A DNA stretch of 64,000 nucleotides from Nitrospirota bacterium (GTDB lineage Bacteria > Nitrospirota > JACRHJ01), in the NCBI GenBank assembly GCA_021784575.1, contig JAJYHX010000009.1, positions 1-64,000 of the forward strand. The letters run 5' to 3'. Shown piece after piece: positions 766-835 of the stretch (positions within the stretch are counted from its first letter, which is position 1; every line of letters starts with the position of its first letter). The position numbers and the translations under genes were made by a program. A model generated the notes under the pieces. It did no database searches and was not told the origin of the DNA. It saw only the letters and a program-made list of their open reading frames with translations.

Positions 766-793
766 AAAAAAACCGCGGCCATAGCGCCCGCGG
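766..793 (-). terminator. Promoter-proximal hairpin with U-tract in the cspA leader
   Basis: On the minus strand CCGCGG (793-788) pairs with CCGCGG (778-773) across a nine-base loop and is followed by seven T residues (772-766). This is the form of an intrinsic terminator, yet it lies only ~7-35 nt after the predicted start of the cspA transcript. It could attenuate the leader or act as a protective 5' stem. Confidence 0.55.
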
Positions 794-806
794 CACCATC
801 GCAGGA

Positions 807-835
807 AATATACTCGCATGTCAGCAATATGTCAA
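807..835 (-). promoter_or_regulatory. Sigma70-type promoter for cspA
   Basis: TTGACA (835-830) and TATATT (812-807) are separated by 17 bp. Predicted transcription starts near 800. The divergent promoter for the export gene begins only 18 bp away, so the two -35 boxes lie back to back. Confidence 0.75.

Follow-up and report, generated by a model that had tools for sequence, protein, structure and literature searches.

The window, a stretch of 64,000 nucleotides of a Nitrospirota genome, carries close to its first position a gene for a 65-amino-acid cold-shock protein, cspA, which is read from the minus strand. The gene is preceded by a structured leader, the first part of which contains a GC-rich hairpin and a run of U. 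The elements of the unit are listed below in the order of transcription. Statements on orthologues refer to a set of six (G000-G005), which consists of the window and five relatives, four of the same genus and one of another genus in the family.

835-807, minus strand: sigma-70-type promoter TTGACA-17-TATATT, agreeing with the consensus at 11 of 12 positions and present in 6/6 orthologues; -35 TTGACA at 835-830, spacer of 17, -10 TATATT at 812-807
799, minus strand: predicted transcription start, A799, which opens the block ATGGTGCC and lies 7 nt past the -10 (8 in G003)
799-781, minus strand: competing 5' hairpin, HP1 (AUGGUGCC/GGCGCUAU), which shares bases with the 5' arm of the terminator hairpin; the first 20 nt fold with -9.6 kcal/mol
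794-772, minus strand: terminator hairpin GCCGCGG..CCGCGGU, full sequence GCCGCGGGCGCTATGGCCGCGGT; -15.4 kcal/mol in a 37-nt stretch
772-766, minus strand: U-tract of seven U, the first of which pairs with G794; six or seven T in 6/6 orthologues
762-698, minus strand: second stem-loop of the leader, CCUGCAAUUUUUCA..UUGAAAAAGUUUGACAGG, predicted for the window and likewise for each of the five relatives
659-652, minus strand: likely ribosome-binding site AAAAGGGG, as read from the sequence
644-447, minus strand: cspA open reading frame, ATG at 644-642, with relatives in 94 of 99 genomes
396-423, listed on the plus strand: terminator-like hairpin 3' of cspA and also 3' of a plus-strand ORF at 109-396; it may serve cspA too

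The promoter is one of two sites in 3 kb that match the consensus at 11 of 12 positions. Promoter-like sites with at least 9 of 12 matches number 11, against 2.2 expected in shuffles. The terminator stem, counted from 794, begins 5 nt past the predicted start, and the U-tract is separated from the cspA ATG by 121 nt. An earlier note on this DNA had described the same arrangement, a TTGACA-17-TATATT promoter followed by a stem and seven U about 120 nt upstream of the ATG, and all of this was found at 835-766. It had also placed the stem after the predicted start, which is correct, at a distance of about 7 nt, which is slightly too long. A terminated RNA, which it put at about 35 nt, would by the coordinates measure about 34 nt, in agreement with it.

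The GC-rich hairpin at 794-772 has the U-tract directly on its 3' side, as in the structure of an intrinsic terminator, and it sits between the predicted promoter and cspA, where an attenuator is located. Taken by itself, the stability of the hairpin is weak evidence (z -1.43; 19 of 200 shuffles are equally stable). The hairpin is not listed by the terminator scan of the window; the 8-nt loop limit of the scan would exclude the plain 6-bp stem with its 9-nt loop.

Five of the six orthologues share the block that opens at the predicted start, and G005 has GTGGTGCC in its place, whereas the bases between the block and the -10 vary. An upstream open reading frame that begins with an ATG at the predicted +1, and that in the window would encode MVPRALWPRFF, was discarded as a candidate, since the frame is not kept. 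It is 11, 50, 21, 10 and 19 codons long in G000, G001, G002, G003 and G005, respectively, and in G004 it continues into cspA in frame.

Conservation of the leader in cspA orthologues

The promoter, the stem and the run of six or seven T are kept in all six orthologues; in G005 two bases, GA, are located between the stem and the T run. A hairpin that is not conserved in relatives was one of the findings by which the earlier note would have considered its reading refuted, and the presence of the hairpin in 6/6 removes this objection. The terminator is paired in 47 of 47 scorable pair cells, compared to 93.7% in shuffles, and shifting the partner columns by one to three positions lowers the pairing to 23-67%. 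Two of the eight pairs are changed on both sides among the six sequences, and the covariation score is 0.375 versus 0.218 in shuffles. The values of pairing and covariation are matched by 8 of 500 shuffles and the count of doubly changed pairs by 66 of 500. As far as alignment can indicate, the case for conservation of the terminator hairpin beyond chance is good but not overwhelming, six related sequences being few. HP1 keeps 95.2% of its 42 pair cells and displays no covariation beyond that of shuffles across the six orthologues.

The window hairpin has one extra base in each arm relative to the other orthologues. By eye, the DNA beside the csp promoter of G001 (L036) resembles the antisense of the end of the polysaccharide-export-type gene that occupies 890-1432 of the window in full length.

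The hairpin might function for DNA other than cspA, by ending transcripts that arrive from upstream or by shielding a divergent gene, with the cspA promoter located downstream of 766. This is very unlikely, even though a minus-strand MerR-type ORF is indeed found upstream, at 1439-1855. The minus strand between 766 and 644 contains no site with at least 9 of 12 promoter matches, and a looser scan detects one promoter-like site, at about -62, which is confined to G002 and G003. The promoter at 835-807, on the other hand, is conserved jointly with the hairpin. In G001, the flanking DNA beyond the promoter differs, and the promoter, the hairpin and the csp gene still remain together.

Hairpins and U-tracts in other csp leaders

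The genome of the window carries four csp genes. One paralogue, located on contig C3, has orthologues in the four congeners, and the layout is present in 5/5 of these leaders in different sequence, as TTGACA-17/18-TATATT, overlapping GC-rich hairpins and finally four to seven consecutive T. The energies of the early hairpin and the terminator differ by at most 1.1 kcal/mol in 4/5, and in the C3 gene of the window's own genome the terminator is better by 3.1 kcal/mol. The layout is absent from the C6 csp family (0/5) and from the C10 csp family (0/3 scored). The other two csp copies of G005, one with a strong hairpin and a poor T tail and one with no hairpin, do not display it clearly. In the C3 paralogues (L042, L043, L041, L040 and L039), two overlapping hairpins come right after the consensus promoter. 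The first of these hairpins in G002 and G004 has four T after it, and the leaders of these two genomes may contain two alternative terminators.

The phylum outside the window's family was sampled with 104 csp loci, 24 taken for the best matches and 80 chosen from a part of the matches listed. G000-G005 were not part of this sample, and 102 loci were usable after removal of L010 and L014, which are without a csp start. The strict detector accepted stems of at least 5 bp, with -10 kcal/mol or better and a T-rich tail, that end 220-20 nt before the ATG. Such a hairpin with a U-tract is found upstream of 56 of the 102 sampled csp genes. The background in the same set is a mean of 2.8 per 102 in dinucleotide shuffles (ten rounds) and 5 on the antisense strand. 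The control genes with their upstream regions came from the window and from twenty stretches, each of 20 kb, in genomes of the phylum. Their positives amount to 10/364 overall, 3/132 with a gap of at least 120 nt and 0/93 with a gap of at least 200 nt, where the control starts are those of the longest ORF, possibly misplaced, and the csp set is free of an upstream-gap filter. The additional demand of a promoter-like site within 60 nt leaves 36/102 csp genes and 1/132 controls. Across many phyla, the feature occurs in 8 of 75 usable named loci (80 less the dropped L069, L111, L122, L127 and L140), and four of the eight are labelled Nitrospirae or Nitrospiraceae.

By the strict test, 46 of the 102 phylum leaders are negative. 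Among the 56 positives, at least L011, L021 and L022 are probably not attenuators as scored; the reported hairpin precedes a TTGACA site in these three. The survey counts also treat related species, and hence loci that are not independent. Despite imperfect positives and kinship, the contrast between csp and control leaders in the Nitrospirota sequences is large.

Several leaders of the survey have peculiarities of their own. In family f6 (L019, L024, L144, L145 and L169), the leader contains AACCGC..GCGGTT and a U-tract about 165-135 nt before the ATG, and none of these leaders has a match at E 0.01 to the model R1 described below. L196 and L197 have an inserted hairpin-rich stretch (CCCCTCTCCC..GGGAGAGGGG) between the leader hairpin and the csp gene, perhaps a small repeat element. 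L139 (Nitrospiraceae) and L242 (G066, a genome of the same phylum) share stretches of 80-85% DNA identity.

Thirty-three of the 56 positives match one covariance model, R1, into which 25 of these 33 were built; L177 has an R1 match and was missed by the strict detector. An R1 leader consists of GAAGUUUCGGAAGUUUUUGU soon after the -10, GGCCGCAAAGACUUUUAGCUUUGCGGCC with the U-tract, UUCCG..CUUC and then the Shine-Dalgarno sequence. Examples are L027:1365-1483, L166:266-381 and L219:266-381. Matches at E 0.01 or better are present in 36 of 99 genomes. Some weaker matches fall on the strand opposite a sense match. The csp neighbourhood was checked for the 20 matches that were fetched, and all 20 (13 in the model and 7 not) are directly upstream of a csp gene. 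The 21 stretches picked irrespective of csp, namely the window and the twenty 20-kb stretches, yielded one weak match of 22.3 bits. R1 is carried by the named Nitrospirae or Nitrospiraceae loci L096, L101, L139 and L141, all of them in the model. A weak match is located upstream of csp in L076, of the Deltaproteobacteria, and another just downstream of the csp gene in L114. Rfam 15 contains no family specific to R1, as judged from the 18 loci tested, and R1 is a potential new RNA family to annotate.

Pairing in this class was examined in alignment A2, comprised of 29 leaders chosen from the positives (25 of the phylum and 4 named) with the omission of L161 and of leaders that have long inserts or other hairpins, so that its pair counts describe the chosen class. 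In A2, pairing amounts to 96.2% in the terminator helix, where 5 of 10 pairs have changed on both sides, and to 80.1% in the helix that encloses it, where 6 of 11 pairs have done so. RNAalifold alone predicts the terminator helix from A2 and does not predict the enclosing helix. The same 5' strand can alternatively pair with the 5' arm of the terminator (88.6% paired in A2). The covariation of this antiterminator pairing is not above that of shuffles in A2, and the pairing is only a suggestion.

Homology of the window leader to R1 was rejected, as the covariance model has no match in the window, in G000-G005 or in L001-L004. Both are csp leaders with a promoter, a hairpin and a U-tract, but the hairpin of the window follows the start far more closely, and by the covariance-model test it is not related to R1 in sequence. 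By this comparison, the window leader shares the layout of R1 but belongs to another sequence class. The lack of an R1 match in a leader of the same layout indicates either a repeated origin of the arrangement or a divergence too great to be recognized.

A hairpin of this kind could also be a 5' stabilizer or another structural part of the mRNA that contributes to protection or translation and causes little termination, the U-tract being incidental or a Csp-binding site. The location of the hairpin at the extreme 5' end, the further stem-loop downstream in the leader and, in the wider class, the enclosing helix that surrounds the hairpin in the read-through RNA are all consistent with such a role. 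Csp proteins, according to PMC7825780, favour pyrimidine-rich single strands. However, the U-tract remains beside the stem across leader types of differing sequence, and the stem with its adjoining U-tract is rare before other genes (3/132), both of which make a purely structural role rather improbable. The very stable 5' stem, which the earlier note had offered as an alternative, is conceivable but would not account for a U-tract that is retained next to the stem in several leader types of different sequence.

Transcription attenuation as the proposed control

The usual account of how csp genes are induced by cold comes from E. coli and invokes mRNA stability and translation, and the E. coli cspA cold box has been the subject of earlier work. 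A hairpin and U-tract that are kept in relatives and are common in Nitrospirota csp leaders suggest control by read-through, in which polymerase running past a stop signal in the leader may be what turns on csp expression in the phylum. The terminator or attenuator that the earlier note had proposed has acquired comparative support (6/6 orthologues; 56/102 csp leaders against 3/132 controls), and control of cspA by transcription attenuation, with the hairpin as the attenuator, is a fairly probable interpretation of these sequences.

According to this mechanism, polymerase starting at about A799 would meet the intrinsic terminator (794-766) within about 34 nt, and by default some of the transcripts would stop at this point. 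Alternatively, HP1 would be formed by the initial 19 nt, which are the first to emerge from the polymerase, and would take up part of the 5' arm of the terminator. HP1 uses the conserved AUGGU, which appears dispensable for the terminator, and could form about eight nt before the terminator does. While HP1 holds, polymerase would continue into cspA. Cold shock would lead to more read-through, either by slower refolding of HP1 into the terminator or by the level of free Csp. The signal, for which the earlier note had suggested temperature or a factor, may thus be cold, Csp or a different one.

The barrier between HP1 and the terminator, calculated along the direct path with ViennaRNA, is 13.0 kcal/mol at 37 C and 17.5 kcal/mol at 10 C in the window. 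In the five relatives it is 7.2-9.6 kcal/mol at 37 C and 9.2-14.0 kcal/mol at 10 C, all these barriers being direct-path upper bounds from extrapolated energies. HP1 opens almost fully before the terminator forms in the direct-path estimate, and at equilibrium HP1 is the less stable of the two at all temperatures for which energies were calculated. Because the modelled barriers are higher in the cold, a co-transcriptionally formed HP1 would last longer at low temperature and thus permit read-through.

The association with a cold-shock gene and the variation of the computed energies with temperature might point to a plain RNA thermometer, the terminator of which melts or forms directly with temperature. 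The terminator, however, is more stable in the cold in all six sequences. Simple thermal melting as a cold switch was rejected by its sign, since melting gives more read-through when warm, and a plain thermometer is extremely unlikely. Cold induction would therefore need a kinetic trap or a protein factor.

A more general form of the attenuation mechanism can be put forward only tentatively. The csp genes of Nitrospirota might be under autogenous, cold-responsive attenuators that belong to several sequence classes and follow one logic. HP1 would act as the kinetic trap, free Csp on the U-rich strand would reset the choice, and the U-tail of the RNA of about 34 nt may bind Csp. If attenuation is true, the leader would work as a switch made of about 35 nt of RNA, on which Csp, with its known influence on terminators, could naturally act. 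With a conserved terminator in the leader, a main point of csp control in another phylum may be the decision to continue transcribing.

Attenuators are a known kind of regulator, and what is added here is a conserved terminator-type element, apparently one of several in Nitrospirota csp leaders. The attenuators of genes for RNA-binding proteins resemble the window leader as predicted, with a promoter, a competing hairpin and a terminator; in comparison with them, the window terminator is unusually near the start. In B. subtilis, attenuators are enriched before operons of RNA-binding proteins (14% vs about 5% of operons), and neither 'cold shock' nor 'csp' occurs in the main text of that report (PMC2965389). 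Searches of the open-access literature, which leave out most subscription papers, brought up no paper that describes an intrinsic terminator in the leader of a csp gene. The cspA thermoregulator of the E. coli type, RF01766, is likewise a long structured leader before a cspA-type gene. The window has no match to any Rfam family, RF01766 included, at the gathering score. Of the 18 loci tested, a single one has a match to a cis-regulatory family. This is L027, a member of the wider class, which slightly exceeds the cut-off of RF01766 (80.5 bits vs 78) over the leader and the coding region.

Csp proteins are described as acting on termination. E. coli CspD weakens intrinsic termination (PMC9765468), and CspA, CspC and CspE antiterminate in E. 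coli (Bae 2000, as cited in PMC11648934). CspB and CspD of B. subtilis change terminator read-through, mostly favouring termination (PMC8307031). Csp acting at intrinsic terminators is a ready candidate for the factor; the targets described are other genes, and the direction differs between E. coli and B. subtilis. Termination in the 5' UTR or ORF of E. coli cspB and cspG is attributed, in PMC7815308, to Rho. An early cut-off of csp transcripts may occur there too, but by Rho and not by an intrinsic terminator. Of the 56 positive leaders, 28 have pyrimidine-rich AGTYTTTG-like strings within the 45 nt that precede the hairpin, a count made without a control set. These strings are close to the BsCspB consensus d(GTCTTTG/C) given in PMC7825780.
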